From Tenacibaculum tangerinum (GTDB lineage: Bacteria; Bacteroidota; Bacteroidia; Flavobacteriales; Flavobacteriaceae): a stretch of DNA of 64,000 nucleotides. The first letter of the stretch is position 1. Every line of letters starts with the position of its first letter. Positions 14,352 to 51,919 of the stretch are shown piece after piece. The position numbers and the translations under genes were made by a program. The DNA lies in contig NZ_CP122539.1 in the NCBI RefSeq assembly GCF_029853675.1, forward strand, positions 2,003,001-2,067,000. The letters run 5' to 3'. Under the pieces are notes generated by a model that saw only the letters and a program-made list of their open reading frames with translations, was not told the origin of the DNA and did no database searches.

Positions 14352-15009
14352 AAAATTTAAAATGAATTAACTTGTATGTATCATTATGTTCTGAGCAACA
14401 TTTATCTTTCTTTTTAAACGCAATGTTACATTTATAATCACTATCAATTTTGAGTTCTTTAACATAGTAAACTTCATTATCAATAGTAGTTTTATTACTT
14501 TTTATTTCAAATGATTTCAAAGGAATGTGTAACCCTCTGCTATTCGATTTAATTACAGCTTCCTTCTCAGTCCAATAACTATAAAACCTTTCTAAGTTCA
14601 TTTTTACCCCTTCTTCAATTTTATTCAATTCATAATTGGTCATTTGATTTTTAAAGTGCTCTACATCTATACTTTTTATCATTTCAATATCAATTCCAAT
14701 ATCTTTTTTTTCTGAAATAGCACATACCGCTATATTCCCCGAATGCGATATATTAAAATGGTATTTTTTTGATTTAAAATAAGGTTTAGCGTACTGCATG
14801 TATTCTACATCGGAATCAATATAGTCGCTATTAAAATAATTTTCAAGCCCTTCTTTTAAAAGTAACCTTCCTAATAAGGATAATTGTGCATCTTCCCATT
14901 TTCTATATTTCAAAACTTTTTGTTGAAATCTATCAGAAAAAAAAGACAACTTTTCTAATAATCTATTATGTGAGGATTCAGATATATACGTGTAAAGTAC
15001 TACTATCAT
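14350..15009 (-). CDS. 4'-phosphopantetheinyl transferase (Sfp type)
   Basis: 219 residues. It installs the phosphopantetheine arm on carrier domains. The two signature motifs are visible: GIDIE at 105-109 (Mg ligands Asp107 and Glu109) and WTEKEAVIK at 146-154 (Glu150 and Lys154). HFNISHSG at about 84-91 is the CoA/ACP-binding block. The length fits an Sfp-type rather than an AcpS-type enzyme. It is the last gene of the cluster and ends inside the terminator, so it most likely activates the ACP and PCP domains encoded upstream. Confidence 0.92.
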   Translation of the reverse strand: MIVVLYTYISESSHNRLLEKLSFFSDRFQQKVLKYRKWEDAQLSLLGRLLLKEGLENYFNSDYIDSDVEYMQYAKPYFKSKKYHFNISHSGNIAVCAISEKKDIGIDIEMIKSIDVEHFKNQMTNYELNKIEEGVKMNLERFYSYWTEKEAVIKSNSRGLHIPLKSFEIKSNKTTIDNEVYYVKELKIDSDYKCNIAFKKKDKCCSEHNDTYKLIHFKF

Positions 15010-36000: not shown

Positions 36001-37168
36001 GTAGTATATAATTAGTATTTACCTGAATTTGAGAACACTTACTAACTACATCTCTAACATGAAACATAATTATTCCTCCAACATGATCTAAGGGTAACCA
36101 ATTTAAACTAATTTCTTCCTTTGTAAAACCATTCGCTGCAATAGTTGCCGCACACCTATTAATAAGTCTTCGATGCGTTTGTGGTACTAATTTTGGAGCA
36201 CCTGTACTACCAGAAGTCATTAAATAAACCGCAATATCGTCTGGCTTTACATCAAACGTATTTAATTTTTTAGTATTATTTATTACTTCTTCATAAGCAA
36301 TAACTTTTACCAAGGTGTTCGTGTTTTCTTCTAAAAAACTTTCTATAACTTCTATCTCATCCTTATTACAAACTACAATGCTTTTAGAGAATTGATTAAC
36401 AACAGATGCTAATTTACTAGCTGTTGGTACACTCTTAGTATACTGTTTTGGAAATGCCATTGGAATCATAGGAATTCCCTTTAAAATCCCTCCCCAAAAA
36501 ACCTCTATATACTGCTCCATATCGGGCAGTTGCATTATAACAGGTGTTTCTCTATCTATTTTAAGTTCCTCAAAAGCCCCTGCAACCGTTTTCGCATTTT
36601 CTAATAAACTACCATAAGTTACTGTATTAGTTCTTCCTTGGTTATTTATTAAAGTTATGCCTTTATCACTATTTTTTGAAGCCTCTACTAAACTTTCAGA
36701 AAGTGTGTTCTCTGCTACTGTATTAGCAACTACTCCTCCTGAAATAATTGCTTGTTTTGATACAGAAATTTGTTTGTTTGATTCTAATTCAAAACTTTCT
36801 TTTTGGCTATACTTAAGTTCCAAAGAAGGGTATTCATCTGTTAACTTTTTTGCTAGTAGCTCTGTATAAACTTCATCAAAAATTGGCGTTTCTGTTAAAT
36901 CCTTATTATCTAACTCACCATCCTCTGTTAATGGAAATCCCGTTAGTTGAACTATTTTGAATTCATCATCTACAAGCTCTACAATTTTACTCTTAATATC
37001 ATCTTCTTCAACTATCTGAGTACTTAATATGTAAAGTATCGTAATAGTAGTTCCTTCTTTCGTTTCTTTTTGTCTTAACTGACAATCATAAATCCCTTTT
37101 ATACCTATGATTGATTTTCGAATCAGGAATTCATTTTCTGTAATATTTTTTGTTGTTAATATATCCAT
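33029..37168 (-). CDS. Loading protein: acyl-AMP ligase-ketoreductase-ACP-ACP
   Basis: 1379 residues. After an N-terminal segment of about 140 residues comes an AMP-dependent ligase domain of the PKS loading type (YLMTSGSTGAPK, WLPLDHVGG, AWGMSETC, WFDTGDIAF and NGQNLSCHEIEEY, ending IPRTSIGKIQKGKL near 690). After a linker there is a ketoreductase with TGGLGGIAIALAKSL, LLGRSAFD, and a catalytic Ser plus Tyr-x-x-x-Asn (FSSLNGYF, YAGANSF). Two carrier domains end the protein (FDLGGNSL and FDLGLNSL). There is no KS or AT. It should activate a carboxylic acid, load it on an ACP, and reduce a keto group before handing over to the PKS. The doubled ACP may raise flux or hold the chain for the oxygenase and desaturase encoded next to it. 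Confidence 0.9.
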   Translation of the reverse strand: MDILTTKNITENEFLIRKSIIGIKGIYDCQLRQKETKEGTTITILYILSTQIVEEDDIKSKIVELVDDEFKIVQLTGFPLTEDGELDNKDLTETPIFDEVYTELLAKKLTDEYPSLELKYSQKESFELESNKQISVSKQAIISGGVVANTVAENTLSESLVEASKNSDKGITLINNQGRTNTVTYGSLLENAKTVAGAFEELKIDRETPVIMQLPDMEQYIEVFWGGILKGIPMIPMAFPKQYTKSVPTASKLASVVNQFSKSIVVCNKDEIEVIESFLEENTNTLVKVIAYEEVINNTKKLNTFDVKPDDIAVYLMTSGSTGAPKLVPQTHRRLINRCAATIAANGFTKEEISLNWLPLDHVGGIIMFHVRDVVSKCSQIQVNTNYILQKPLRWMELCSQFKVNITWAPNFAFNLISSFTEEIAKSRLDLSMLRFIMNSGEQVVASQVHKFLKLFKPFKLSSRAVFPAWGMSETCSAVLFNKNFDLTLISNQYVSVGSPVPGIDVRIVNENNKLLKEGEHGKLQIKGATILDSYYKRPDVNKEAFTDDNWFDTGDIAFVENEEVAIVGRNKDILIINGQNLSCHEIEEYIDANIDVEPSSTAVVPYRNEGSFTDNVAVFYHTKKEGAASEKIEKTIRREVSILFGFTPSKIVRVEPNEIPRTSIGKIQKGKLTKMLEAGDFNTESSSSNTVSENNTYDTTVLEQTWKPKKLSKSIDIEPKTVLVFPQEESAINFEALPNDTNVVFALNSDSFHKISKNQYGLNQDCSEDFLKLLEDISLSNIQLDTIIIESREYKNEKDASIIAEKNALTLLHLAKALGKLQKKSLQLILVSKNNQQVLLNEVTKINAGSQIGMMHAIHEELKGISCKHIDLDSLTDVTLLINEAKTIHEFEREIAYRDTKRFVSKLSQAQGHNYAKSFIPQDNETYLITGGLGGIAIALAKSLLKRANVNLVLLGRSAFDTLNKEKLEEYKELTNMSSSITYLSADLNNYETLKQKLTEFNIDCIFHLAADFKMDALGNFSTEEFKHQIQTKVKGSFNLYNVASELEISNFINFSSLNGYFGGVGVIAYAGANSFQKALTSITTKQEKLKVWNISWSIWENTGLGKAIEFPELAARKGFDILKPENALNAMYNVLAKGISNSFIGVDKNNLFMQPYLSLKTSMYKQVEVFGSEDDLNTSFKKHLKDEFGTTIPVLKKVLAEDFTTSLNENTEDVVLNAGGIENYVTTVFEEVLKTDEFSKEDSFFDLGGNSLILPQVFNKIEEKYKCGLTIVDLFQHTTVQEISDLIGNKLANQEDKESYESVKEQVLAIWIKLLNLDEIDEEENLFDLGLNSLMIPQAQNEINELFNTELSVVDFFQYSSVSTLVEVICEKLQITN

Positions 37169-37173
37169 TTTGA

Positions 37174-38145
37174 TTAGTTTAATGAGGTTCTTTTTAATTC
37201 TCTTTCGTCTAAAAACTTGTGAATTCTATTCCAAAAAGTAGGGTTATCATTTGACGAAAGAAATATTCCTCCCATATCAACATTTAGATCTCTGTATTTT
37301 TCATCCTCCATCATTACTTCATGTGCTTTTTTTAAATTCCAATAAGGAATATCAGGACGAAGATGGTGTGTTAAATGATAATTCTCATTATGTATACTTG
37401 AAAAAAAGGCTTCGATAGGATGACTAAACCTGTTCCATGATTGATTTATATCGTTAGGGTTTTTTATTAGTAAAAAATGTTCTGAGATACCAATAAACCA
37501 ACCCTGCCATGGAAATATAAGAAAGAAAGGAGCAAACCATAGAAGAATTAAGTATAATAGCCAACCTTGCCACGCAAAAACACCTATAATAGCAACCCAA
37601 TATCCCAATATTATTTTTGCTTCAAGTGATCCTTCTTTAATATAGCCTACACGATCATTAATTAAAGCTTTCGCATAAACAAACGCATTACCAAATAACA
37701 TAGGTTTTAATAAATGTTTTTTAATAAATGACTTTTTATCTAGATCTTCGTACAAACCAAAATGATTATAAAACCTCAAATCTGGATCTTTTTCTTCATT
37801 ACCTATATAATTATGATGATGTACTACATGAGAATTAATATAATCATCAAAACCTAAAAAAATAAGGTATCCTGTGAGGTATTTCCCTACAAAATCATTG
37901 AACCAAGTATTTTTAAAAAGTACTCCATGCCCAGCATCGTGTAATAATGTTACAAATGCTCGTTGTCTAGTACCTATTAATAACACTGCTAAAGGATAAA
38001 AATACCAGCTTTGAAGAACCAAGTAAACACTAGCACCTATAAATAAATAGTCAATCAATAGTCCAAATAAGGCTCGGTAATTATTGGGGTTAGATAAAAC
38101 ATCTAGTTTTTTAAGTATATCCCTATGGAATTTATGGTTTTTCAT
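37174..38145 (-). CDS. Membrane fatty-acid desaturase
   Basis: 323 residues with hydrophobic helices and the three histidine boxes of di-iron membrane desaturases: HDAGH (69-73), HVVHHH (106-111) and HLTHH (257-261). It inserts a double bond, or with some relatives a triple bond, into an acyl chain using O2 and electrons from a ferredoxin. It lies between a 2Fe-2S ferredoxin gene and the acyl-ligase/ACP loading gene. The same trio (ligase, desaturase, carrier protein) makes unsaturated or alkyne starter units in the jamaicamide-type systems. An acyl-ACP substrate is therefore likely, but this is inferred from context. Confidence 0.9.
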   Translation of the reverse strand: MKNHKFHRDILKKLDVLSNPNNYRALFGLLIDYLFIGASVYLVLQSWYFYPLAVLLIGTRQRAFVTLLHDAGHGVLFKNTWFNDFVGKYLTGYLIFLGFDDYINSHVVHHHNYIGNEEKDPDLRFYNHFGLYEDLDKKSFIKKHLLKPMLFGNAFVYAKALINDRVGYIKEGSLEAKIILGYWVAIIGVFAWQGWLLYLILLWFAPFFLIFPWQGWFIGISEHFLLIKNPNDINQSWNRFSHPIEAFFSSIHNENYHLTHHLRPDIPYWNLKKAHEVMMEDEKYRDLNVDMGGIFLSSNDNPTFWNRIHKFLDERELKRTSLN

Positions 38146-38270: not shown

Positions 38271-38543
38271 TTAAATCAGAACTGGTAATACTTCAGAGTT
38301 TTCTTCTAATGTACATTGACAAAGTAGCCGGTGTTCTTCTATAGAAAAGCCTAGTCTCTTCAATAATTTTTTTTCCTTAGAAGTTATTTCTCCCAAGTCA
38401 CCGTAGTTTGTTTTTACAAGACACCTGCCACATCTACCCTTCAAACATTGAAAAGGTATCACTGTATCAAAATCATAAAGATCTGACATTGAAGTTCCTT
38501 TTTTAAATTCAAAGGACGATTCTCCAATAGTTATTTTCTTCAT
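38271..38543 (-). CDS. 2Fe-2S ferredoxin
   Basis: 90 residues with a plant-type 2Fe-2S pattern: Cys33, Cys38 and Cys41 (CLKGRCGRC), and Cys75 in LLCQC. The short acidic/basic surface and the lack of other domains indicate a free electron carrier. It starts 19 bases after the SyrB2-like gene ends and precedes the desaturase gene, so it most likely feeds electrons to the desaturase. The Fe/2-oxoglutarate enzyme would not need it. Confidence 0.88.
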   Translation of the reverse strand: MKKITIGESSFEFKKGTSMSDLYDFDTVIPFQCLKGRCGRCLVKTNYGDLGEITSKEKKLLKRLGFSIEEHRLLCQCTLEENSEVLPVLI

Positions 38544-38562: not shown

Positions 38563-39468
38563 TTATTGACCTTTCTTAAAAAAAGTCCCTAAATTATTTT
38601 CTGTTCTTATCTCGTTATGATTAAAATTATCTTCTCCACTTACCAATACGCATCCGTAACCTGATTTTTTTAATTGAAAAAAACCTCCATGTCCATGAAA
38701 TTCATCATGCTCTGGATAAACTTTTACTTGAGTAGGAACAAATCGTGATGAAAACGCAAATCGTGTTGATCTTTCACTTACATTAGGATGTGAACCATGA
38801 ATACATTTTGATGTAAATAATATAAATTCTCCAGCCTTCATTTCAATGGATTTACTTTCCATTTGGTCTGGATCCCATTTAGGATCTATTTTGAATTCTT
38901 CAAAATCGTACCCATAAAAATTATCTTTTTCTATAGGAGTATATTCGCTATCTCTTCCTTCAGATACTGGTAATGCCTCGTTATAGTATTGTTTTTTATG
39001 TGTTCCTGGTAAAAATTTCATACATCCATTTTCAATGGTTGTATCGGTAAAAGCTGTCCATGCAGTAATTTCTATATCTTCGTTTTCGCCAGTAATAGTA
39101 GGTTGTAAAATTGGCGCACCTGTAACATATTGAAATGTTCCAACTTGGTGCCAATCTGTTCCCGAACTTTTAGGAAATTTTGGAAAAAACTCCGTTCTCC
39201 AACATAAAAGATCCTCCCCTAAAATAATTTTTACTTTATCTAAAACTTTTTCATTAGATATATGATCAGAAAGCTCTTGAACATCAAAATGTCTATCCCA
39301 ACCAACATTATTCTTATGCATTGCACGATCTTGAACCATACTTTTTGCTCGAATATTTTTTAGCATACTTTTTGCTTCTTCTTGATCGTATGCTTTAAAA
39401 GGTCCTACAACACCATCTTTATCAAAAATGGCCTTTATTTCTTCGGTACTTAGATGATCTAAATTCAT
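38563..39468 (-). CDS. SyrB2-like non-haem Fe(II)/2-oxoglutarate enzyme, possible halogenase
   Basis: 301 residues of the PhyH superfamily, closest by motif memory to carrier-protein-dependent chlorinating enzymes such as SyrB2 (about 310 residues). Shared landmarks are TDWHQxxTF (104-112), WTAFTDTTIENGCMKFLPGTH (variant), FYGYDF, MKAGEFILF, the distal ligand His224 (IHGSHP), the 2-oxoglutarate Arg242 (SSRFVP), and VYP. The facial-triad position normally Asp/Glu in hydroxylases and Ala/Gly in halogenases is Val109 (H107-Q-V). Thus the carboxylate ligand is absent, which leans towards halogenation, but valine is unusual. The substrate is probably tethered to an ACP or PCP of this cluster. Confidence 0.82.
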   Translation of the reverse strand: MNLDHLSTEEIKAIFDKDGVVGPFKAYDQEEAKSMLKNIRAKSMVQDRAMHKNNVGWDRHFDVQELSDHISNEKVLDKVKIILGEDLLCWRTEFFPKFPKSSGTDWHQVGTFQYVTGAPILQPTITGENEDIEITAWTAFTDTTIENGCMKFLPGTHKKQYYNEALPVSEGRDSEYTPIEKDNFYGYDFEEFKIDPKWDPDQMESKSIEMKAGEFILFTSKCIHGSHPNVSERSTRFAFSSRFVPTQVKVYPEHDEFHGHGGFFQLKKSGYGCVLVSGEDNFNHNEIRTENNLGTFFKKGQ

Positions 39469-39759: not shown

Positions 39760-40518
39760 CTAATTTATTGCAGTGTAATTCGACGTTTTTTCTTTCATCA
39801 ATTTATGTAATTCATTCATATTGTTATTCATAAAAAAATGTCCTCCATCAAACTCAAAATAATTGAATTCATTTGTGGTATACATTTTCCAATTTTCAAC
39901 GTACTTTGGAGGGCAAACAAAATCATTACTACCTGCTATTGCTATTATGGGAATATTCAGAATTTTTTGCGGTTTGTAATTATAGCAATCAATTACTTTA
40001 AAATCAGCACGCAATATAGGTTCTATAAAATCTAATAACTCAGGCTCATTTAAAATTTCCTTCGGAAGTCCACCATATTCTTTAACTTGATTCCAGAAAT
40101 CTTCCTTCTCTAAATTGTAAAGAGGTTTTCTTTTTTGTATATCATGTGGCGCTGATCCTGCCGCTAAAACTAATTGCTTTATATTTTTCCCTTTTAAGGC
40201 AAGCGCCAATTCGTAGGCAATAAGTGTACCCAAACTATATCCAAAAAAATAGGTTGGAAGCTCAGGTAATTGGCTAAGTTCTTCTACTAAATTTTCCGTT
40301 ATGGTATCTATAGTATCAACAAGAGGCTCTTTTATACATTTTCCTCTTCCTGGCAGGTCTACAATTAAAACCTCTACGTTACTGTCCATCTTATTTGCGA
40401 TAGGATACATTACAGCGGAAGTTGCTCCTGCATAAGGAAAAAAGACCCATCTAGATTCGTAGTTTTTAATACCTTGGTCTCTAAAAGACAACCAAGGCGA
40501 AATATTTTTATACTTCAT
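39760..40518 (-). CDS. Type II thioesterase
   Basis: 252-residue alpha/beta-hydrolase of the external PKS/NRPS thioesterase class. Landmarks are FFPYAGATSAVMYPIA, DLPGRGKC, the nucleophile Ser95 in FGYSLGTLIAYELA, and the late His in FDGGHFFM. An acid lies in the AGSNDFVCPP segment. Such enzymes clear stalled or wrong acyl groups from carrier proteins. Because no thioesterase domain is fused to the last NRPS module, this free enzyme may also take part in product release. The start lies three bases after the adenylation-enzyme stop. Confidence 0.92.
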   Translation of the reverse strand: MKYKNISPWLSFRDQGIKNYESRWVFFPYAGATSAVMYPIANKMDSNVEVLIVDLPGRGKCIKEPLVDTIDTITENLVEELSQLPELPTYFFGYSLGTLIAYELALALKGKNIKQLVLAAGSAPHDIQKRKPLYNLEKEDFWNQVKEYGGLPKEILNEPELLDFIEPILRADFKVIDCYNYKPQKILNIPIIAIAGSNDFVCPPKYVENWKMYTTNEFNYFEFDGGHFFMNNNMNELHKLMKEKTSNYTAIN

Positions 40519-40521: not shown

Positions 40522-42030
40522 TTATAATTCATCTATCAATTTTTTTCGATCTAATTTTCCACTGGATAGTAAAGGGAATTGTTCTTTAAACACAAATTTG
40601 TTCGGAATCATATAAATTGGTAGTTTCGTTTTTAACTGTTCTTTTATAAAGTTTTCCCTAAGTGCTGCATTGGATTTATAAAAAGCATATAAAAATTGAT
40701 TTCCATTTTTTTCGTTCATTAAAACAACCGTTTCCTGTATATTTTCAATAGTTTTAAGCTGTTTTTCAATATCTGCTAACTCTACACGCAAGCCTCTTAA
40801 CTTAACCTGAAAATCTTTTCTTCCTACAAAACATATGTCTAAAGACGTAACATCTCTATATACTATATCTCCTGTTTTATAAGCTCTTATGTTTCCATGG
40901 TTAGGAAGAGAAACAAATTTTAAATTGGTTAATTCTTCATTATTCACATAATTTCTAGCCAACCCTATACCTGAAATGTACAACTCTCCTTCCTCTCCGT
41001 TATTTTTATCTTTTAAATCGTTATCAAGTATCCATAGTTTAATATTACTAATAGCTTTTCCTATCGGCGCTATTGTATAATCTTGTTCTTTTTCTCTAAA
41101 TGCATAATGAGATACATCTATACTAGCTTCGGTAGGTCCATATAAATTAATTAATATTCCTTGTAGGTTTTTAAAAAATTGATTGAACGTGTTAACGCTG
41201 GATATAGCTAGTTTTTCCCCACTGGTAAAGACATACTTTAACGATGCTACAGCACTTGCATCTTCTTTTATAGATAAATATTCGAGAAACAAACGAAATA
41301 CAGAGGGTACAAAATGAATAACATTAATTTGGTGTTTATCAATTAACTTAAACATGAGTCTTACATCTTGCTCTCTACCGCTTGGAAGTAATACTACCGA
41401 AGCTCCGTACATTGACCACCAAAATATTTCCCATACAGAAACATCAAAAGTATATACTGTTTTAAAAAATAAGGTATCAGAAGAGGTAATAGGATATGCT
41501 TTTTGCTTCCAAATTAATCGGTTGTATAACCCGCCGTGTTCTATGGCAACTCCTTTAGGTTTACCTGTTGAACCTGATGTATAAATTACATACGCTAAAT
41601 CATTTCCAGAAACCGATATTTCTGGACTTTTTTTAGAAAATATGCTTAAATCTATTTCCTCTAGCGAAAACTGCTTTCCTTCAAAAGCATCATAAATATC
41701 CTTTGTACTTGATACAAGCGTTTTTATCTTACTATCTTCAAAAATAGAACGAAGTCTTTCTTTAGGGTAAGAAGGATCTAAAGGTAAATAAGCTGTTCCT
41801 ACCTTTGTTATTGCAAAAATAGTTGTCATCATTTCTATGGAACGCTCCATTAATATTCCAACTATATCACCTTTTTGTACTCCTGACTCAATAAGCATAT
41901 TTGCTAACTGATTCGAACGTTCGTCCAGCTCTGAATATAAAACTTTCTGATCACCTTGAATTATAGCTACTTTATTTGCATGTACGCGAAAAGCTTCTTC
42001 TATTATCGAAAGTATATTATTATTTTCCAT
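40522..42030 (-). CDS. Stand-alone adenylation enzyme, predicted serine-activating
   Basis: 502-residue amino-acid adenylation domain without its own carrier domain. Core motifs seen: LAYVIYTSGSTGKPKGVAIEH, YTFDVSVWEIF, NLYGPTEASID, YKTGDIV, LRGLRVEL and the final LLSSGKLDRKKL. Residues aligned by eye to the GrsA pocket give D-V-W-H-F-S-L-I-D, one change from the known serine code (DVWHLSLID). Together with the neighbouring ACP, acyl dehydrogenase and hydroxyacyl dehydrogenase this matches the ZmaJ role in aminomalonyl-ACP formation: activating serine and loading it on the free ACP. Confidence 0.9.
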   Translation of the reverse strand: MENNNILSIIEEAFRVHANKVAIIQGDQKVLYSELDERSNQLANMLIESGVQKGDIVGILMERSIEMMTTIFAITKVGTAYLPLDPSYPKERLRSIFEDSKIKTLVSSTKDIYDAFEGKQFSLEEIDLSIFSKKSPEISVSGNDLAYVIYTSGSTGKPKGVAIEHGGLYNRLIWKQKAYPITSSDTLFFKTVYTFDVSVWEIFWWSMYGASVVLLPSGREQDVRLMFKLIDKHQINVIHFVPSVFRLFLEYLSIKEDASAVASLKYVFTSGEKLAISSVNTFNQFFKNLQGILINLYGPTEASIDVSHYAFREKEQDYTIAPIGKAISNIKLWILDNDLKDKNNGEEGELYISGIGLARNYVNNEELTNLKFVSLPNHGNIRAYKTGDIVYRDVTSLDICFVGRKDFQVKLRGLRVELADIEKQLKTIENIQETVVLMNEKNGNQFLYAFYKSNAALRENFIKEQLKTKLPIYMIPNKFVFKEQFPLLSSGKLDRKKLIDEL

Positions 42031-42046: not shown

Positions 42047-43153
42047 TTAGGCGTATAAAAACTCTTTAGCTATAAGAACTTCATGTATTTCCGTTGAGCC
42101 TTCAATAAGTTCCATAATTTTTGCATCTCTATACAATCGTTCTGTAAAAGACGAATTTAAATGACATCCTTTCGCCCCTAAAATTTGAATAGCTTTAGAG
42201 CTTACGTTAGTTGCTGCCTTTGATGCGACATATTTTGCTAAAAGTGTTTTACGTATCATAGAAAAATCAAAAGTTTCTCTAGCTCCAGCCGCAGCGGTGC
42301 AAAAACTTTTAGCAGATTCTACTTCTACTATCATTTCGGTTAATAGTTTCTGAACAAGCTGATGTTTATTTAACCTATCTTTTTCTCTTAAATGTTTCAA
42401 GGTTTCCTCTAAGGCCAATTCTGCAATTCCATAACTTCCACAGGCAGTTGTGTATCGTCCTTCATCTAAGCCAAAATTAATCGCTGTCGATACACCATCT
42501 ATTTCGTTACCAATAGCGTTTTCTTTAGGAATTTTACAATCGGTAAATTCAATTTCAGCCAACATATTCGCACGTAAACCAAGCATGTTCGTTATTGGTT
42601 TAACTTTTACTCCATGTGTATCTTTTTCAACAATAACTGCAATTGTTTTATTGTTTAACTTACATAGTACCAAGAAAAAATCCGCTATTTGTCCTAATGT
42701 AATCCATCTTTTTACACCATTAATAGTAAAATGAGTTTGTTGATCTGTCAAATATGTATCAACAGCTCTTAAATCACTTCCTGCATTAGGTTCTGTTAGG
42801 GCTATTGCTCCAATTTTTTCACCAGAGGCTATTTTAGGCAGCCATTTTTCACGAATTTCTTTGGATCCAAATCGTTGAATAGGCTGAGTAACCATCCCTG
42901 TTACAGTTAACATATTTTCAACTGATCCGTGTCCTTTTGCCATTATTTTATGAAGAGACATCATGTCATAAGTATTCAAATCAAGCCCTCCATATTTACT
43001 TTTTACACAAGCTCCGAAATATCCCCTGTCTGCAATATTTTTTATTACAGAATCAGGGATATTTTGAGTTTCATCCATCTCAATAGCATGTGGTACAATA
43101 TATTCTGAAACAAAAAGAGCTACTTCCTCTTCAAATTTTGAATTAAATGCCAT
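42047..43153 (-). CDS. Acyl-CoA-dehydrogenase-like flavoenzyme (aminomalonyl-ACP pathway)
   Basis: 368 residues with the acyl-CoA dehydrogenase fold: ALTEPNAGSDLRAVDT, WITLGQIADFFLV, the LDEGRYTTACGSYG segment and the C-terminal MELIEGSTEIHEV, which supplies the catalytic-base region. FAD is the expected cofactor. In methoxymalonyl (FkbI-type) and aminomalonyl (ZmaI-type) pathways a homologue oxidises the carrier-bound C3 unit. It lies between the free ACP gene and the serine adenylation gene with very short spacers, which supports that role over ordinary fatty-acid oxidation. Confidence 0.88.
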   Translation of the reverse strand: MAFNSKFEEEVALFVSEYIVPHAIEMDETQNIPDSVIKNIADRGYFGACVKSKYGGLDLNTYDMMSLHKIMAKGHGSVENMLTVTGMVTQPIQRFGSKEIREKWLPKIASGEKIGAIALTEPNAGSDLRAVDTYLTDQQTHFTINGVKRWITLGQIADFFLVLCKLNNKTIAVIVEKDTHGVKVKPITNMLGLRANMLAEIEFTDCKIPKENAIGNEIDGVSTAINFGLDEGRYTTACGSYGIAELALEETLKHLREKDRLNKHQLVQKLLTEMIVEVESAKSFCTAAAGARETFDFSMIRKTLLAKYVASKAATNVSSKAIQILGAKGCHLNSSFTERLYRDAKIMELIEGSTEIHEVLIAKEFLYA

Positions 43154-43159
43154 CTCGCT

Positions 43160-43405
43160 CTAGCTATTTACTTTTAATCTTTCGTCGATAATTTCTGCAA
43201 TAGCATTTACTGAGCTAAGATTTTCTAACGATACCTCTTCTGGGTCAAGTTCTATTTTGTATTCTTTTTCAATAAATAGAATAATTTGCATTGCAAATAA
43301 CGAATGAACTAGTCCTAATTCAAAGAAGTTCTCATCATCATCAATTTCATTTCCTTGAAGAATTGGCTTAATACGCTCTCTAATTTTAACTTTAATGTTT
43401 TCCAT
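43160..43405 (-). CDS. Free acyl carrier protein (aminomalonyl-ACP type)
   Basis: 81 residues. The attachment serine lies in LGLVHSLFAMQIILFIE, the SLFAMQ form typical of FkbJ/ZmaH carrier proteins used for unusual extender units rather than fatty-acid ACPs. The helix pattern is complete. It starts 20 bases after the hydroxyacyl dehydrogenase gene ends and is followed by the acyl dehydrogenase gene. It is expected to carry seryl, then aminomalonate semialdehyde, then aminomalonyl. Confidence 0.9.
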   Translation of the reverse strand: MENIKVKIRERIKPILQGNEIDDDENFFELGLVHSLFAMQIILFIEKEYKIELDPEEVSLENLSSVNAIAEIIDERLKVNS

Positions 43406-43425
43406 TATTAATAATTGTTTAAATA

Positions 43426-44283
43426 TTATACGTTATATGAATAAAATCCTTCACCTGACTTCATACCAAGGAGGTTTGCATTTACCATTTTTTTAAGTAA
43501 GAAACATGGTCTAAATTTATCGTCATTAAAACCATCTTGTAGCATGTAGAGTGATTTTAAAATTGTGTCTAAACCTATCAAATCAGCCGTTTCGAGTGGC
43601 CCCATAGTATGACCAAAACATTCTTTAAACAAAGTGTCAATATCTTTAGCTGAAGCAACTCCTTCTTGTAACATAAAAACGGCTTCGTTTACAAAAATCA
43701 TCATGGCTCTATTTGTAACAAAACCTGGTGAATCGTTAACAACAAGTGTTCTCTTGTTTAATACACTCATTTGATCTTGTAAAAAAGCTACTGTTTCGTT
43801 ATTAGTATGGTAGCCTTTAATTAATTCGACCATTGGTTTTAAAGGAACGGGATTCATAAAATGTACTCCAATTACATTTTCTGGTTTTGGTAATAAATTT
43901 GCAACCTTTGTAATAGATACAGCAGAGGTGTTTACCGCCCATTTCGCGTCTTCTTTACAAATGTTTCTTAATTTTTTATATACTTCCTTTTTTATATCCC
44001 AATCTTCCGTAACATTTTCAATTATCAAATCAGCATCTTTTGCTTCAGAATAATTGGTAGTAAAATTTATTCTTTCGATAATTTCATCTACCGACTCTTT
44101 CGATTTATAATGATTTTTATGAAACTTGTATAATCGAAGGTTTTTTCTAATTTGTTTTTCACTATTTTCTAATTGTTTTTCAGATATATCAATTAGAGTT
44201 ACTGGAATTCCATATTGAGCGAAATTGTGGGCAACACCTGTTCCCATAACCCCTGCTCCCATAATTGTTATGTTAACAGACAT
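43426..44283 (-). CDS. 3-hydroxyacyl dehydrogenase (aminomalonyl-ACP pathway)
   Basis: 285 residues. An N-terminal NAD-binding Rossmann motif (IMGAGVMGTGVAHNFA), VNTSAVSIT, the catalytic-region GVHFMNPVPLKPMVELI, DSPGFVTNR, and the C-terminal helical domain (GPLETADLIGLD) define the 3-hydroxyacyl-CoA dehydrogenase family. In zwittermicin and guadinomine biosynthesis a homologue (ZmaG type) oxidises the seryl hydroxyl on the ACP. It is the first gene of the cassette, directly after the second PKS gene. Confidence 0.9.
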   Translation of the reverse strand: MSVNITIMGAGVMGTGVAHNFAQYGIPVTLIDISEKQLENSEKQIRKNLRLYKFHKNHYKSKESVDEIIERINFTTNYSEAKDADLIIENVTEDWDIKKEVYKKLRNICKEDAKWAVNTSAVSITKVANLLPKPENVIGVHFMNPVPLKPMVELIKGYHTNNETVAFLQDQMSVLNKRTLVVNDSPGFVTNRAMMIFVNEAVFMLQEGVASAKDIDTLFKECFGHTMGPLETADLIGLDTILKSLYMLQDGFNDDKFRPCFLLKKMVNANLLGMKSGEGFYSYNV

Positions 44284-44405
44284 TTTTATTATGTTTTAGT
44301 TGTTTTTATTAAATAATTTCTTGTAGCAAAAGAGTTTTCTAACCTTTAACACTTATGATAAAGTGTATATTTTTTTCTATTGTAGGATAAAAACTATAGA
44401 ACCTT

Positions 44406-47400
44406 TTATTTGGTATTACTTTTGCAAATAGCAGCTATTTCTTGTAAATTACTTTCCCCTATTGTTTTCAGCGTTATACTTATTCCTAATTCTTGTTTAA
44501 TTCTATTTCTAAAACGAACAATGCTTATAGGGTCTTTGTCAGCTAACGTTAGCTCTTTATTTTTTTCAAAAGACTCTTCAAAAATATCCGTGTAAATATT
44601 TTCAATTGATTTATGTGGCAATATTTTAGCAGAGGTATTAAATTTTGTATTATTGGTGTCGGCAAACCAAAACCTGCTTCTATTAAATGTATAAGCTGGA
44701 ATTTCTATTTTTTCACATGAAAAAGGTTTTAATACCTCCTCCCAATTCACATTTATTCCATAGCTAGATAAGTTTGTTAGTGCGGTTAAAAGAGCAGTTC
44801 TTTCAAAACCAGGTTGACTAATACTTATGGTTGTAGTGTCAGGGTTTGACTCCCGTATTAAAGGCGTTAACGCCGCCTTAAATCCTATCTCTAAAAAACA
44901 ATTCACACCACGATCAAGAATAGTATTCACGCCTTTTTGAAACCTCACTGTATCTCTTAAATGATTTGCCCAATACTGTTCTGTAATTTCCTTATCTGTT
45001 ATAAATTCACCTTTTATATTAGATACTATATCTAATTTGGGTTTATTGATCTTTACATTCCTAGCATATTCGGTAAATTCTGCCATTATTGGATTCATAA
45101 AACGTGAATGTGCTGCGTGAGAAACAGAAAGATAATTAACGCTGATTTGTTGTTCTTTAAAGGCTTTTTCTACTTTTTCAAGTTCCTCTAAATGACCCGA
45201 AATTACGATGGCTTCTTTTCCATTAATAGCGGCAAAATCAACATCTGCTCCATTTTCTTTTATCACTTGTTTTACATGGGCTTCTTTCGCTATTATGGCC
45301 AGCATTCTACCTTCATCACCAACACTCTCCATTAACGACGCTCTTTTTTCTATTAGCTGTAATGTTGATTTTATATCCAAAATCCCTGCTAAACAAATTC
45401 CTGTATATTCCCCTATACTATGCCCTATTAATGAATCAGGGGTAACTCCCCAATGCATTAATTGTTTTGCAAATGCAATTCCAAAACTAAATATAACTGG
45501 ATGTGCTGTTTGGGCAGACTCTAAAGCTTCTTCCGAGGCTTCAAACATGTTCTTTTTTAAGTCGTTACCACTAATTTGATAATATGCTTCTTGGCATTCA
45601 TCTATCACCGAACGGAAAACAGGGTAATGTTTAAACATCCAACTTCCGATTTTTTTACCTTGTGACCCATGGCCAGAAAACACAAAAGTTAATTTAGAAG
45701 CTTTATTATTACCTAAATAATTAAAAAGTCCTAATTTCTTTTTTCCTTCTAAAAAAGCATGTAGCCTTTTAGCAAGCTCTTTTTTAGTTTTTCCTACAAC
45801 ACCGATTCTATAATTAAAAGTTTTACCTTTAATGGCTTGTGTATAGCATATATTTTTCACGGATTCTTCGGTATATTCCAAGAATTTTAACATACTATTT
45901 ACCTGCGCTTCTATATTGTTTTCTTTATGAGCTCCTAAAATTAGCCCATATAACTCGTCTTTACTTGACGTATTCTCTTTGTTTTCTACCAAAGGTGTTT
46001 TTATAACAACATGAGCATTACTACCACCAATTCCAAAAGAACTCACTCCAACATATACTTCTTCTTTTTTCTCTTTTAAATCCTTTACTTCTATAGGAAC
46101 TTCAATAGGGTATTGATTCCAATCTATTTGTGAATTTGGAGTATGATAATTCACTTGGGGAGGGATGGTTTTATTTTTTGCTATTAATGCAGCCTTTATT
46201 ATGGATAATATACCTGAAGCAGCTTCTGCATGTCCAAAATTAGCCTTTAAAGCACCTAAATAAAGTTTAGACTTGCGGTTATTATTGGTACAATAAGTAT
46301 TTGCTAAAGAATAATATTCTATTGGGTCTCCCAAACTTGTTCCTGGTCCATGAGCCTCAATATAATCAACCTTTTCAGGATCAACTTCTCCTACATTTAA
46401 ACAATTATTAATAACTGTTTCTTGACTCTTTCCGTTAGGTGCAGTCATTCCATTACCTCCTCCATTATGATTAATAGCAGAACCGCATATAACAGCTTGA
46501 ATATTATCTTTGTCTCTAACAGCATCTTGAAGTCTTTTTAAGACAATTACTCCACAACCTTCTCCCAAAGCAAACCCATTTGCATTTTCATCAAAAGACT
46601 TACAGCTGGCATCATCACTTAAAGCTCCTAGTGCACAACGTGAAATAACTTCTTGTGGAGTTAAAATTAAATTAACCCCGCCTATTAAAGCGCAATCGCT
46701 TTCTTTCAAAAGCAAACTATTAATCCCTAAATGTAGGGCAGTCATAGAAGAAGAACAAGCTGTGTCTACCGTTAAGCTCGGTCCATTAAAACTCATTAAA
46801 TATGATATTCTTCCAGCAGCAACACCTCTACTATTACCTGTTCCGGAGTAAAAGTTAATATTATCAAGACTATCCTTATTTACTGATAGAGAGCGATAAT
46901 CACTAGTTCCAACCCCAATAAACACTCCTGTTTTTCTATTTTGTAAATCTTTTAATGATAAGCCACCGTTTTCAATTGCCTTGTAAGTTGTTTCAAGAAT
47001 CAAGCGTTGTTGTGGATCCATTTGAATTGCTTCATTGGGAGAAATCCCAAAAAAACTCGGATCAAATAAATCAATATCGTTAATAAATCCTCCTTGATTT
47101 ACATAAGTTTTCCCCCTAGTATCTTTATCAGCACTATAAAAATCGTTAATATCCCATCCTCTATTTTTGGGATAGTCTGTAATTCCCGATTGTCCATTCA
47201 ACAAAACTCTCCATAAGTCATCTGTTGTATTTATATTGGCAGGAAGCTTACAGCCAATTCCTACAATGGCTATACTTTCTCTTTTTTCTTTTTGCGATTT
47301 TATTTTTTTTATCGTTGTTAAAAACCCATTTAACAAATCTGGAGAAACATTATTGTTCTTTAACTTGTTAATAAAAAGCTTTATATCTGAATTCATTTTT

Positions 47401-47411
47401 GTGTATTTCAA
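44406..47411 (-). CDS. PKS module KS-AT with a serine-less ACP
   Basis: 1001 residues. Residues 1-45 are a possible coiled-coil docking region. The KS has MDPQQR, Cys219 (DTACSSS), EAHGPGT and KANFGH, so all catalytic residues are present. The AT has FSGHGSQ, the nucleophile in GHSIGEYTG and the specificity motif VSHAAHS (malonyl enzymes usually show xAFH). After the post-AT motif YTFNRSRFWF comes an ACP-like tail in which the usual DSL attachment site reads DPIS, so the serine is replaced by proline and the FxLGG part is lost. No reductase domains are present, which leaves a beta-keto group for the aminotransferase. Its AT is the best candidate for aminomalonyl transfer, by context only. Confidence 0.9.
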   Translation of the reverse strand: MKYTKMNSDIKLFINKLKNNNVSPDLLNGFLTTIKKIKSQKEKRESIAIVGIGCKLPANINTTDDLWRVLLNGQSGITDYPKNRGWDINDFYSADKDTRGKTYVNQGGFINDIDLFDPSFFGISPNEAIQMDPQQRLILETTYKAIENGGLSLKDLQNRKTGVFIGVGTSDYRSLSVNKDSLDNINFYSGTGNSRGVAAGRISYLMSFNGPSLTVDTACSSSMTALHLGINSLLLKESDCALIGGVNLILTPQEVISRCALGALSDDASCKSFDENANGFALGEGCGVIVLKRLQDAVRDKDNIQAVICGSAINHNGGGNGMTAPNGKSQETVINNCLNVGEVDPEKVDYIEAHGPGTSLGDPIEYYSLANTYCTNNNRKSKLYLGALKANFGHAEAASGILSIIKAALIAKNKTIPPQVNYHTPNSQIDWNQYPIEVPIEVKDLKEKKEEVYVGVSSFGIGGSNAHVVIKTPLVENKENTSSKDELYGLILGAHKENNIEAQVNSMLKFLEYTEESVKNICYTQAIKGKTFNYRIGVVGKTKKELAKRLHAFLEGKKKLGLFNYLGNNKASKLTFVFSGHGSQGKKIGSWMFKHYPVFRSVIDECQEAYYQISGNDLKKNMFEASEEALESAQTAHPVIFSFGIAFAKQLMHWGVTPDSLIGHSIGEYTGICLAGILDIKSTLQLIEKRASLMESVGDEGRMLAIIAKEAHVKQVIKENGADVDFAAINGKEAIVISGHLEELEKVEKAFKEQQISVNYLSVSHAAHSRFMNPIMAEFTEYARNVKINKPKLDIVSNIKGEFITDKEITEQYWANHLRDTVRFQKGVNTILDRGVNCFLEIGFKAALTPLIRESNPDTTTISISQPGFERTALLTALTNLSSYGINVNWEEVLKPFSCEKIEIPAYTFNRSRFWFADTNNTKFNTSAKILPHKSIENIYTDIFEESFEKNKELTLADKDPISIVRFRNRIKQELGISITLKTIGESNLQEIAAICKSNTK

Positions 47412-47437: not shown

Positions 47438-50400
47438 TTATTCAAACAGTTCTTTCTCAAGTAAGTCTATTAAGTAGTCTTTATCGGATATTTCTAATTC
47501 CTCAGACACTTTTTCCTTTTCAATTACCTCTTCCTTTATTGGTGCTGTTTTTTCAAGTATACATAATGCAAGAGCCGTTACACTTGAATTACTATAAAAA
47601 TCTCCAATAGTTAATTTTACAGGCAATTTCTTATTTAGAAGATTTTTAAGTTGAATCAATGTTAAAGAATCAACACCAAGGTTATGAAAGCTCTGATCTT
47701 CCTGAAGATGTTTATTTTCGTTTATCCCTAATACATTTTTAACTTCTTGAATAACTTCTTTAGTTATCAGTACTTCTTTCTCATGAGAAGAAAGTCCGTC
47801 TAAATTGATAGTAGTATTTGCGTCTTTCTTAGTTTGGCCAGTGTAATGACTGCTCCAAAATTGCTTTCCAATTTCATTTAAGTTTTTATTATCTGAAATT
47901 TCACTTAAAATATTATCTGAAAATTTATTAATAATTAAATGATGAGAATTATCGTTTAAAGCTCCTAGCATTAATTTATAAGCTTCTTCATTGGTAATTT
48001 TATACGCTTCATTTAAACTTTTACCAGCAACTCCTCTCGATGCCATACCTATATTTTTCCATGCTCCCCAACTAATACTTGTAGCTTTGATTCCAGAGTT
48101 ACGCAAAATTTTTGAATAATCATCAAGAAACGCATTTGCAGCAGCATAATTACTCTGACCCGCTGCTCCAAAAGCGCTTGCTACCGACGAGAAAAACAGC
48201 ACTCTCTTAGGCGTACATACTTGCATCATATTTAAGAGCCCTGTTACTTTTGGTGATACAACATTTTTTATCTTTTGATAATTCATATTTTTAACCACAC
48301 CATCAGATAATTTTCCTGCTAAGTGAATAAGTAAATCTAAAGAATTCGCGATACCATTTGTTTTATTAATTAATTCTCTTACTTCATCTTCAATGGTTAT
48401 ATCGCATAAATAATATTCAATTTTTTTATCATCTTTATTCCACTGCTCTATCTTATTTATTATTTCCTCATTAGGGGCAGACCTACCTATTAACACAATT
48501 TTTTCAACAGTTTTCTCTTTTAACATTTTCTCAGCTAAATATAGGCCTATCTCACCTAAACCTCCTAAAATCATGCACTTTCTTATCTCTGTTGGTAGTA
48601 AAAATGAATTTTCGTGAAAAGAAATGTTTTTTAATTGAGGTGCTGCTACATTGTTATTAATCATTCGTTCATAGAACCTTTTTTTATCGGAACTATCGGC
48701 TCTATGAATAAAATTAATAATTTCTTGATTTGCATTTAAGCTAGCTATTTCGGTAATATAACAATGTAGGTTTTCTAATTCATATTGGGCACTTTTCACA
48801 ATTCCCGTAAGTGCATGAGAAATTGATTTTTGTGAATCCGTAGTTGTTTCTGCTGTATTATTATCAAATACATAATGAAAATCAACTGCCTTACCTCCTT
48901 CTAGCTCTGCATCTAATTGCCCCATTAATGTTGTTAGAAAAAATGCTTGCTCTGTAAAGGGAAGCTCTTTATTTGGCACAAAAACTACTTTTGTTTCCAT
49001 TCCTCCCTGTTCCGCTTTTAAAGAATTAATAGTTGCTTGAATTTCTTCTTTATCTTGCGGAGTTTTATAATGGATAACAGCGTTTTTCTGCGCTGTAAGT
49101 GATTCGTTAATTTTTATTGAAAGAGGATTTTTGTCGTCTCCAAAAAGTACCCATAGCGTATTAGTTTCAATATTTTTTTCTCTATTATTTATGGAAATTG
49201 ACTTTGTATTCCAGTCAATTTCAAATATATTATTTTGGTCCTGCTTGTTATTTTTTGAGGGCAACCAAAAGCTTTTCTTTTCAAAAGGGTAATTTGGTAA
49301 AAGCAATTTTTTAAAACTCTTCGCTCCGTATATCTTATAAAAATTCAAGTCTAACCCTAGCAAAACACATTTTCCTATAGCTTTTTTAAAATCATGTGAG
49401 CCGTGAATACTTTTAGAGCAAAAAATGGTTTCAGCTTGTTCAAAAGAATCGTTAATAAAATTAGAAAGTACTGGCTTAGGACCTAGTTCAAAAAAGATTT
49501 GATTTTTTTTGTTTACCAGGTATTCAATACTCTTGTGAAATTTTACGCTATTCATTAAATGCTCTAACCAATAATCTACTGTAGCTATAGAGTCGGTAGC
49601 AGGTAACCCTGTTAGATTTGAAATTAATTGAAGTTTTGGTTTTTTGAGTTTTTTATTTTTCCACTTCTCTCTCAGTTGTTCCATTGCTGGCTTCATTAAA
49701 TAAGAATGGAAAGCATTTGAAACTTTAAGTTTTTTAATTGTTATTTCTTGTTCTTTACACCATTTTTCAAAAAATAAAATGTCCTTTTCATGTCCAGATA
49801 CAACAATTGACTTTTCAGTATTTTCAGCGGCAATATTTATGTTTAACTTTAATTTACTAAGTGTTTCGAGCAACGTTTCTAAAGGCAGAAACACTGCTGC
49901 CATTGCTCCATTTTTTTCCAAGCCTCCCATGATACTTGCTCTTTGCATTATCAGCTTAAAACCTTCTTCCATAGTGAAGACTCCTGAGACTGCCGCTGCG
50001 GTGTATTCTCCTACACTATGCCCCAACAATGTTTTTGGTTTTAAACCAAATGATTCCCACAGTTTGTACAACGCAAATTCAAAAGCAAAGATTGCTGGTT
50101 GTGCATTTTCTGTTAAGGTTAAATTTTCTTCTGGCCCATTAAACATTAACTCCAAAAGACTTTCTTTTCTTTTATCATAAAAAAGCTTTTCAAACGTATG
50201 GAGAATTTCTTTAAATAGTGGAAACGAATCGTAAAAAGTTTTCCCCATTCCTACAAACTGACTACCTTGCCCTGTAAATGCGACAACAACAGACTGTTTT
50301 ACTTTCTTGGTTTGTTTGTAATATTGAGTATTTACGGAATATTTCTGACTTAGAAAATAATCTATTTTTTTTATTGCATTTTCTTTGCTTTCGACAGGTA

Positions 50401-51919
50401 TCGATAATCTATGATCAAAATGCTCCTTACACAGTATACTATTGATGCAAATTTCTCTAAAATCAATATCCTGTTTTAGGTACTCTTTATATAATAATGC
50501 ATAATCTTTTAAAGATTTTTCTGATTTAGCACTTATAAAAAGCGGGAAATAGTTGCTTTTCGTTGTGCTTTTTTCTTTTTCAGTACTATCATACTCCGAT
50601 AAGATAACATGTGCATTCGTGCCTCCTGCACCCAAAGAGGCTATAAGACAGACTCTAGGTTTTTCGCTACTTTCCCACTCCTTTGTTTCTTTGTTTATAT
50701 GAAATGGCGTATTTTTTAAGTTAATAAATGGATTTGGTTTTTCATATCCAGTAAGTAATGGTTGCTTTTTTTCTTTAATTAGCAGTAAACATTTAATAAA
50801 TGCCGCAATTCCTGCTGAAGTATCTAAATGACCTAAGTTAGCCTTTACAGATCCTAAAGAACAAAATTGACTATTTACATTTTTTCCTTTTGATTGAAAG
50901 GCATTTGTTAAGGCCGTAATTTCAATAGGATCTCCCATTTTAGTTCCTGTACCATGCGCTTCTACATATCCTATTTCATTAGATGAAATTCCTGCATCTT
51001 CAATTGCATTTTCAATATTTTCTTGCTGTCCTTCAATACTTGGAGCGGTAAAACTTACTTTTTTTGCTCCATCATTATTTACTGATACTCCTTTAATTAC
51101 TCCACAAATTGTATCGTTATCTTCTAATGCTTTGTCTAACCTTTTTAAGACGACCACACCTACGCCATTTCCTCCAATAATTCCGTCAGAATCCGATGAA
51201 AAAGGATTACATTTTCCAGAAGGAGAATATATACCTCCTTCATAATACTGATAGCCACATTTTCGAGGAGTGTGCACGGAAGCACCCCCTGCCAAAGCAA
51301 TATCACAGTCTCCATATCTAACACTTTTTACCGCTGTGCTTAGCGCTACTAAAGATGATGAACAGGCCGTTTGAATGGTTAGTCCTGGGCCTCTTAAATT
51401 TAATGTGTATGACAAAAGTGTTGCTAAATAATCTTTATCATTCAGTAATTTAACCTTAACACTATCTACAGATTCTAATACTTCTTTATGATGCTCTACG
51501 TTATTTTTAAAATAGGTATTTCTATTTTTTCCAGAATATAAGGCCATCCCACAGGAAGCAAACACCCCACATTTTACTGAATTTGTTTTATTTATGTATC
51601 CCGAATTCTCTAATGCATGATAGGATTCCTGAAGAAATAGACGAAACTGAGGATCCATAATCTCAGCTTCTCGATTAGAAAATTTAAAAAAATTAGCATC
51701 AAATTTATCAACATCGGGGAAATATCCGGATATTGGTTTGTAATCCGCACTACTTACTATTTCTTCTGAAACTCCTTCTTTTATAATGGCTTCTTTTGAA
51801 AAGTTTGTAGTCGCTCTTTCCCCATTCATTATTATTTTTGAATATTCTTCGAGACTTCCTGCACTCGCAAATTTTCCAGAATATCCAATGACTGCTACTT
51901 GTTTTCTTAAATCTTTCAT
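47438..51919 (-). CDS. PKS module KS-AT-KR-ACP
   Basis: 1493 residues. KS: MDPQFRLFLQE, Cys186 (QTACSSSL), EAHGTGT and KANLGH, all intact. AT: FTGQGSQFVGMG, GHSVGEYTAAA, and specificity motif SNAFHS, matching malonyl-type enzymes. KR: GGLGEIGLYLAE for NADPH, the Ser in FFSSVASAFG and the Tyr/Asn in SNYAAANAF. ACP: LGVDSLTLIQL, with the attachment serine present. The C-terminus is a charged tail that could dock with the next protein. It should add one malonyl unit and reduce it to a beta-hydroxyl. It is the first synthase gene of the cluster, after the transporter. Confidence 0.95.
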   Translation of the reverse strand: MKDLRKQVAVIGYSGKFASAGSLEEYSKIIMNGERATTNFSKEAIIKEGVSEEIVSSADYKPISGYFPDVDKFDANFFKFSNREAEIMDPQFRLFLQESYHALENSGYINKTNSVKCGVFASCGMALYSGKNRNTYFKNNVEHHKEVLESVDSVKVKLLNDKDYLATLLSYTLNLRGPGLTIQTACSSSLVALSTAVKSVRYGDCDIALAGGASVHTPRKCGYQYYEGGIYSPSGKCNPFSSDSDGIIGGNGVGVVVLKRLDKALEDNDTICGVIKGVSVNNDGAKKVSFTAPSIEGQQENIENAIEDAGISSNEIGYVEAHGTGTKMGDPIEITALTNAFQSKGKNVNSQFCSLGSVKANLGHLDTSAGIAAFIKCLLLIKEKKQPLLTGYEKPNPFINLKNTPFHINKETKEWESSEKPRVCLIASLGAGGTNAHVILSEYDSTEKEKSTTKSNYFPLFISAKSEKSLKDYALLYKEYLKQDIDFREICINSILCKEHFDHRLSIPVESKENAIKKIDYFLSQKYSVNTQYYKQTKKVKQSVVVAFTGQGSQFVGMGKTFYDSFPLFKEILHTFEKLFYDKRKESLLELMFNGPEENLTLTENAQPAIFAFEFALYKLWESFGLKPKTLLGHSVGEYTAAAVSGVFTMEEGFKLIMQRASIMGGLEKNGAMAAVFLPLETLLETLSKLKLNINIAAENTEKSIVVSGHEKDILFFEKWCKEQEITIKKLKVSNAFHSYLMKPAMEQLREKWKNKKLKKPKLQLISNLTGLPATDSIATVDYWLEHLMNSVKFHKSIEYLVNKKNQIFFELGPKPVLSNFINDSFEQAETIFCSKSIHGSHDFKKAIGKCVLLGLDLNFYKIYGAKSFKKLLLPNYPFEKKSFWLPSKNNKQDQNNIFEIDWNTKSISINNREKNIETNTLWVLFGDDKNPLSIKINESLTAQKNAVIHYKTPQDKEEIQATINSLKAEQGGMETKVVFVPNKELPFTEQAFFLTTLMGQLDAELEGGKAVDFHYVFDNNTAETTTDSQKSISHALTGIVKSAQYELENLHCYITEIASLNANQEIINFIHRADSSDKKRFYERMINNNVAAPQLKNISFHENSFLLPTEIRKCMILGGLGEIGLYLAEKMLKEKTVEKIVLIGRSAPNEEIINKIEQWNKDDKKIEYYLCDITIEDEVRELINKTNGIANSLDLLIHLAGKLSDGVVKNMNYQKIKNVVSPKVTGLLNMMQVCTPKRVLFFSSVASAFGAAGQSNYAAANAFLDDYSKILRNSGIKATSISWGAWKNIGMASRGVAGKSLNEAYKITNEEAYKLMLGALNDNSHHLIINKFSDNILSEISDNKNLNEIGKQFWSSHYTGQTKKDANTTINLDGLSSHEKEVLITKEVIQEVKNVLGINENKHLQEDQSFHNLGVDSLTLIQLKNLLNKKLPVKLTIGDFYSNSSVTALALCILEKTAPIKEEVIEKEKVSEELEISDKDYLIDLLEKELFE

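Follow-up and report, generated by a model that had tools for sequence, protein, structure and literature searches.

The guadinomine cassette of Streptomyces makes an aminomalonyl extender unit on a discrete acyl carrier protein (ACP) by a serine route, and serine is likewise the source of the aminomalonyl unit of colibactin, in which ClbH has the adenylation role. The zwittermicin genes zmaG-J of Bacillus cereus UW85, which operate with the acyltransferase (AT) ZmaF, are described as providing four enzyme roles, viz., an adenylation enzyme, a discrete ACP, a 3-hydroxyacyl-CoA-dehydrogenase-like enzyme (HADH), and an acyl-CoA-dehydrogenase-like flavoenzyme (ACAD) (PMC6395733). In the Enterobacteriaceae, ClbD-G make and attach the aminomalonyl unit of colibactin, with the AT ClbG handing it to several polyketide synthase (PKS) proteins (PMC5923317; the likeness to the present system is drawn from this description), and the rhabdobranins of Xenorhabdus also contain such a unit (PMC9177418). 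Given the colibactin and Xenorhabdus examples, this kind of extender unit occurs beyond the Bacillus and actinomycete hosts to which a preliminary description of the locus considered here had mainly assigned it. A cassette with the same four enzyme roles lies in a PKS/nonribosomal peptide synthetase (NRPS) cluster of about 37 kb on the minus strand of our window, which is the whole 64,000-nucleotide stretch 2003001-2067000 of the 3.61-Mb, single-contig genome of Tenacibaculum tangerinum (Bacteroidota, Flavobacteriaceae). The 16S gene of the genome supports its placement in the Bacteroidota: among 519 plasmid-collection records with a match, the best 15 belong without exception to genera of this phylum, with full-length identities of 79-84%. 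We consider it highly probable that the four genes make aminomalonyl-ACP and that the adjacent protein with ketosynthase (KS) and AT domains uses this unit for one extension, most likely by way of a carrier acting in trans, with all the chemistry, the AT substrate, and the acceptor carrier being predicted from sequence. What is new is the host group, as far as a literature search shows, along with the missing free AT and a carrier-like domain devoid of its serine: no open-access paper was found that joins 'aminomalonyl' with 'Bacteroidetes' ('Bacteroidota' was not searched), and none of the papers listed in a further search shows Aquimarina, the genus of the second host discussed below, together with 'aminomalon'; this does not prove that such a cassette has never been published.

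The four cassette genes and the KS-AT gene are present as first described, and Pfam gives the fold of each; the range originally assigned to them does take in the genes for the HADH, ACP, ACAD, and KS-AT protein, but the adenylation gene (40522-42030) falls outside it. The successive gaps from the KS-AT gene through the HADH and ACP to the ACAD are 122, 20, and 6 bases, all on the minus strand, and the adenylation enzyme starts 16 bases past the ACAD stop. Its pocket, as recovered by alignment, reads DVWHFSLIDK and on recomputation does lie, as had been claimed, one residue from a serine code, that of the E. coli EntF (DVWHFSLVDK), which is annotated as serine-activating; the identical pocket occurs in the counterpart from Aquimarina agarivorans and in all four zwittermicin-like cassettes from Bacilli (L092-L095). 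The closest solved relative of the enzyme is 8xjz_C (446 bits over the best stretch, versus 334 bits for LgrA), which we take to be ClbH of colibactin, and whose pocket in the printed alignment is DVWHFSLID. The top NCBIfam name, the solanimycin protein SolG, is reached with 390 bits, far under the cut-off of 2200, and this match reflects a common serine adenylation domain; according to its published description, the sol cluster is without genes for aminomalonyl (PMC10204066). The discrete ACP (ELGLVHSLFAMQII) presents its serine within the motif HSLFAMQ. In the HADH, Ser120, His141, Glu153, and Asn191 are in place, with the spacing of the catalytic residues of L-3-hydroxyacyl-CoA dehydrogenase.

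In the pathway we propose, the adenylation enzyme would activate L-serine and load it onto the discrete ACP, through the phosphopantetheine at Ser35, whereupon the HADH-like enzyme would oxidize the serine CH2OH to an aldehyde with NAD, and the flavin-dependent ACAD-like enzyme would take the aldehyde, probably as its hydrate, to the carboxylate, yielding aminomalonyl-S-ACP. The KS-AT protein would then perform one decarboxylative extension, so that the PKS/NRPS product would contain an alpha-amino-beta-ketoacyl chain.

The HADH, ACP, and ACAD alone cannot separate hydroxy-, methoxy-, and aminomalonyl cassettes: the PDB matches of the ACAD include FkbI (1R2J, 122.6 bits, below many general ACADs), and the SLFA motif recurs in many of the extender-unit ACPs recovered, but not in every one. 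A cassette of the FkbH type, supplying hydroxymalonyl- or methoxymalonyl-ACP, would have the same three components, which the window shares with FK520 and with L021-L025, and most of the relatives found do have FkbH (37 of the 70 rows of the ACAD tree, by labels that we assigned from the nearest partner within 2.5 kb). Nevertheless, the FkbH model TIGR01686 has no match in either of the two Bacteroidota genomes, T. tangerinum and A. agarivorans, while it matched all four plasmid records that served as positive controls, having been chosen for an annotated HAD-IIIC phosphatase beside an HADH-ACP-ACAD set; FkbH is present in L021 and L023-L025 by the same model and in L022 by tblastn. Furthermore, Pfam scans found no O-methyltransferase among 18 cluster proteins, and a serine-code adenylation enzyme stands in FkbH's place. 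The search with picked controls contradicts an FkbH-type cassette, which we regard as scarcely credible for this locus.

Synteny over the cluster extends to A. agarivorans HQM9, another member of the Flavobacteriaceae, with 13 cluster genes on L003 and five more on L107. None of the cassette genes is broken in either species, and their conservation is on the high side for the cluster (identity of 88% for the HADH, 91% for the ACP, 83% for the ACAD, and 79% for the serine enzyme); the corresponding values for the halogenase and the GntB-like protein encoded downstream are 87% and 86%. Searches with the ACAD gave matches in 29 of 398 genomes of Bacilli (E 1e-60) and, for Streptomyces, in 20 of 295 (E 1e-55). 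The Bacilli matches lie at 35 places, 30 of which were classified by their neighbors, as was each of the 21 places in Streptomyces; a serine-type enzyme lies beside the ACAD at four of the classified places, all in Bacilli (L075, L078, L079, L081), and three of the five remaining Bacilli places are covered by L092, L094, and L095. The organization in L092-L095 is free AT, HADH, ACP, ACAD, serine enzyme, and large PKS/NRPS, with a second ACAD/ACP pair, in either order, ahead of the AT. In L094 and L095 one extra open reading frame separates the ACAD of this pair from the AT, and in L092 and L093 the pair has FkbH beside it. GYSLG and GPFH are found in all four of the free ATs, and since ZmaF has exactly these motifs (PMC4207774, Table 2), the loci are good stand-ins for the zwittermicin genes. 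Measured against these stand-ins, the window has the same gene order, HADH-ACP-ACAD-adenylation enzyme, and the same pocket; unlike the zwittermicin genes, it has no hydroxymalonyl half (FkbH/ZmaN). Since this order is kept in A. agarivorans and four Bacilli genomes, the arrangement is not due to chance.

These comparisons also bear on the idea that the serine enzyme feeds an NRPS or the substrate of a halogenase, with the HADH and ACAD acting on some other acyl-ACP. A SyrB2-family gene does lie two genes downstream of the adenylation gene, and SyrB2-family proteins act on carrier-bound amino acids. However, both gene order and pocket agree with those of the four zma-like cassettes, for which no halogenase match is listed in 20-kb stretches, and the chlorinating enzymes known to us act on unactivated methyl groups, which are absent in serine; we hold this use of the enzyme to be highly improbable.

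In the genomes sampled the cassette is rare: the ACAD search recovered its own genome and G021 alone among 397 genomes of the window's family (E 1e-60), its own genome and two generic ACADs among 395 of the phylum, and its own genome plus nine others at 34-36% identity among 97 of the genus (E 1e-55). The two Bacteroidota matches (G569 and G751) are generic ACADs in the tree, and queries for the HADH, ACP, adenylation enzyme, FkbH, and a ligase described below match nothing in the 18-19 kb around them; an ACP match on a Persicobacter plasmid belongs to a separate, unrelated type II ketosynthase cluster.

For the phylogenies, rows were dropped if they held fewer than 300 query residues, had stops, or were contained in another (ACAD); fewer than 400 residues or stops (adenylation domain); fewer than 240 residues or stops (HADH); and fewer than 220 residues or frames below 300 aa (AT). 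The ACAD tree (70 rows, 22 of them with no partner, comprising eight generic ACADs and 14 of extender type by position) places the window and five other serine-cassette rows in a set of eight (support 98/92), which also holds two long-branched FkbH rows. In a reduced tree without L055, L060, and L040, which are the two long-branched FkbH rows and another long one, all six serine rows fall on one side of a branch with an SH-aLRT of 88. The second ACADs of the serine-cassette Bacilli clusters sit elsewhere, among FkbH rows. The serine-derived aminomalonyl-ACP cassette of the preliminary description is thus supported by the pocket code, the failure to find FkbH in either genome, the ACAD grouping, and the intact HADH and ACP residues.

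Two features bearing on delivery of the unit differ from zwittermicin and colibactin. With a ZmaF-type query, three ATs come up in the T. tangerinum genome, viz., a 295-aa protein of FabD size outside the cluster, the NAFH-type AT of the PKS module (47438-51919), and the AT of the KS-AT protein, and A. agarivorans likewise gives three matches; no free AT of the ZmaF/ClbG type was found with this query in either genome, and a free AT is not part of the cassette proper. In place of a ZmaF-type enzyme there is the in-line AT, which carries the atypical HAAHS motif noted earlier, in both the window and A. agarivorans, and retains its catalytic residues (Ser665, Arg690, His768). The published signs of ATs acting on ACP-bound extenders are GYSxG, G-A-A-H or G-P-F-H, and a hydrophobic RXR position, and the HAAH site resembles the GAAH of the hydroxymalonyl-ACP AT ZmaA (PMC4207774, Tables 2 and 3). 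By these signs the AT is mixed, its second motif being close to that of ZmaA and its first that of ZmaK; it probably has a widened pocket and may, as had been suggested, accept aminomalonyl. In the AT tree (28 rows) it shares a long branch with its A. agarivorans counterpart; the two fall among the in-line ATs, devoid of a supported neighbor, so that the tree only excludes them from the free-AT clade.

The KS-AT protein is also predicted to be without a functional carrier, again unlike the zwittermicin system. It has no PP-binding Pfam match, but its last ~65 residues align with carrier domains, with proline replacing the phosphopantetheine serine (KDPISIV in the window, KDPINIV in A. agarivorans) and the preceding loop shortened. 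An AlphaFold model of this tail (two sequences, pLDDT 68) displays four helices in carrier order, and Foldseek retrieves almost only carrier proteins among the best 50 of 293 matches; with a best E of 0.059 and none at E 0.001, this fold match is suggestive, not strong, given E-values of 0.06 and up. By comparison, the zma-like PKS/NRPS proteins of L092, L093, and L094 (that of L095 is cut off by the end of the stretch and lies outside this check) all have two PP-binding stretches, with SSL in the last one, after the AT; as these three keep theirs, a serine-less carrier is not a general feature beside such cassettes.

In the usual route, according to a review, the AT takes the unit over from the discrete ACP and hands it on to an integral ACP (PMC5331325). 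Because the carrier fold of the KS-AT protein lacks the attachment serine, transfer by its AT most likely occurs in trans, with the tandem ACPs of the AMP-ligase protein (33029-37168) or the ACP fused to the aminotransferase (30789-32729) as putative acceptors. The main rival to such a transfer accepts the synthesis of aminomalonyl-ACP and has the KS condense directly from the discrete ACP, with the AT idle or proofreading and the tail a docking remnant. It draws on the proline in the carrier-like fold of both species, the lack of a detected ZmaF-type free AT in either genome, the CoA-type first motif of the AT, and the position of the KS-AT gene directly upstream of the HADH-ACP-ACAD-adenylation genes. 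Against it stand the intact Ser665, Arg690, and His768, the conservation of HAAH in both species, which suggests selection on AT function, and the usual route outlined in that review. We regard this rival as a whole as doubtful and hold it unlikely that the PKS step itself dispenses with transfer to a module carrier, the KS-AT protein taking the unit straight from the discrete ACP; were this so, a type I module would be working with a free extender carrier. Transfer in trans probably remains the route, and the in-line HAAH AT, combined with a carrier that lacks its serine, points to another way of delivering the unit, one that can be tested.

Several findings weigh against the proposed pathway or qualify it. 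TIGR01686 matched none of 14 standing control genomes, so that the sensitivity of the FkbH search rests on the four picked controls. The adenylation-domain tree (50 rows) places the window enzyme with the in-line, serine-code adenylation domain of L004 (95/84) and does not unite it with the Bacilli serine enzymes, and the HADH tree (29 rows) joins the window to L030, on long branches (SH-aLRT 83), and not to the Bacilli cassettes. Ancestry shared with the zma-like cassettes is thus indicated for the ACAD and not for the adenylation enzyme or HADH, neither of which is sister to its Bacilli counterpart, and the cassette is therefore not shown to be one inherited unit. In the AT, the first motif GHSIG is of the CoA type, as in the malonyl-CoA AT ZmaK, whereas ZmaF and the AT of ZmaA have GYS (PMC4207774). 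The RXR position reads SVN in both species, i.e., neither the positive residue of the CoA type nor the hydrophobic pair of the ACP type; this criterion is itself not a clean one, since the in-line AT of L092 reads EHS there. Finally, the NRPS frame is broken in the window, and separate breaks, including a set in the KS-AT gene, affect the draft sequence of A. agarivorans, so that an active product is not assured.

The breaks lead to the possibility that the cluster is decaying and the cassette a relic. The NRPS frame is interrupted inside an adenylation domain (24157-24400), an exporter gene of the MATE family beside the cluster is in two overlapping frames (52096-53429), and insertion sequence (IS) copies flank the cluster (12215-13232 and 56034-57051). 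Conversely, the cassette genes are intact in both species at the identities given above, and in A. agarivorans a single open frame (L107, 8676-14237) runs across the NRPS junction that is interrupted in the window, although that frame is broken elsewhere; the break in the window could be either a sequencing error or decay. The genome has about 20 near-full IS copies, and their position beside the cluster is therefore of little weight. We consider decay improbable. The flanking copies are inverted, 99% identical, and of the DDE_Tnp_1_3 type, and the notion that they form a composite transposon is weakened by the same abundance.

In the order of transcription, the cluster starts with KS-AT-ketoreductase (KR)-ACP and continues with KS-AT, HADH, ACP, ACAD, stand-alone adenylation enzyme, and thioesterase, then SyrB2-family halogenase, ferredoxin, GntB-like diiron protein, AMP-ligase-KR-ACP-ACP, and ACP-aminotransferase, and ends with NRPS genes, a further KS, a GNAT protein, an outer-membrane barrel, and a phosphopantetheinyl transferase (Table 1).

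Table 1. Features of the PKS/NRPS cluster, in window coordinates.
Feature	Position	Strand	Basis
PKS module KS-AT(NAFH)-KR-ACP, predicted malonyl	47438..51919	-	Pfam and motif residues
Type I PKS protein KS-AT-degenerate carrier, 1001 aa from TTG (ATG at 47396)	44406..47411	-	
Ketosynthase of the KS-AT protein	46146..47279	-	Pfam; Cys219, His354, His394 present
Acyltransferase of the KS-AT protein	44850..45689	-	GHSIG Ser665, Arg690, HAAH 765-768
Carrier-like tail of the KS-AT protein	44406..44606	-	Pro961 at phosphopantetheine serine position
3-Hydroxyacyl-CoA-dehydrogenase-like enzyme, 285 aa, putative ZmaG-like role	43426..44283	-	PF02737 E 5.7e-54, PF00725
Discrete ACP, 81 aa, attachment Ser35 in VHSLFAMQ	43160..43405	-	PF00550 E 1.1e-9
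Acyl-CoA-dehydrogenase-like flavoenzyme, 368 aa, putative FkbI/ZmaI-like role	42047..43153	-	PF02771/PF02770/PF00441
Stand-alone adenylation enzyme, 502 aa, predicted L-serine, putative ZmaJ-like role	40522..42030	-	PF00501 E 7.7e-80
Type II thioesterase-like hydrolase	39760..40518	-	PF00975 E 4.7e-31
SyrB2/CytC3-type iron halogenase family	38563..39468	-	TIGR01762 300 bits (cut-off 226); 2FCT 229.6 bits
2Fe-2S ferredoxin-like protein	38271..38543	-	PF00111
Membrane diiron hydroxylase-like protein, near GntB	37174..38145	-	NF041365 330 bits, below cut-off 380; PF00487
AMP-ligase-KR-ACP-ACP protein	33029..37168	-	
ACP-class III aminotransferase protein	30789..32729	-	
NRPS C-A-T-C-A(cut), frame stops inside second A domain	24400..30741	-	
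NRPS continuation A(rest)-T-C-A-T	20195..24157	-	
4'-Phosphopantetheinyl transferase	14350..15009	-	PF01648

The KS-only protein at the cluster end (18101-20008) is without the first part of the KS fold and overlaps the GNAT gene, and it is retained in A. agarivorans. In the halogenase and its A. agarivorans counterpart (L003, 12386-13282), the third position of the metal triad reads HQV where SyrB2 and CytC3 have HQA; there is no carboxylate and a bulkier residue at what is presumably the halide site. The halogenase adjoins the genes for the GntB-like diiron protein and the 2Fe-2S ferredoxin (together 37174-38543), and the presence of a diiron hydroxylase and a halogenase side by side suggests a hydroxylated, chlorinated amino acid unit. 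The cluster is a lead to a PKS/NRPS product that is possibly both chlorinated and hydroxylated.

A possible different solution for loading is seen in L030 (12934-16637), from G021 in the window's family, in which a seryl-tRNA-synthetase-like amino acid:carrier-protein ligase lies between the ACP and the ACAD, replacing the adenylation enzyme of the HADH-ACP-ACAD set. It matches NF005479 with 165 bits (below the cut-off of 357), and its nearest solved relative is 4h2w (amino acid--[acyl-carrier-protein] ligase 1; 111 bits). Similar ligases occur near extender-type ACADs in L096, L097, L104, and L106, and together with FkbH in L021; in the wider surroundings of five of the 14 extender-type ACADs with no partner, the ligase was recovered in L104 and L106 and not found in L098, L103, and L105. 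A residue that we assume to contact serine is Asn in L030 and L097 and not in the other four. These tRNA-synthetase-like ligases may represent a second, possibly undescribed way of loading amino acid extender units.

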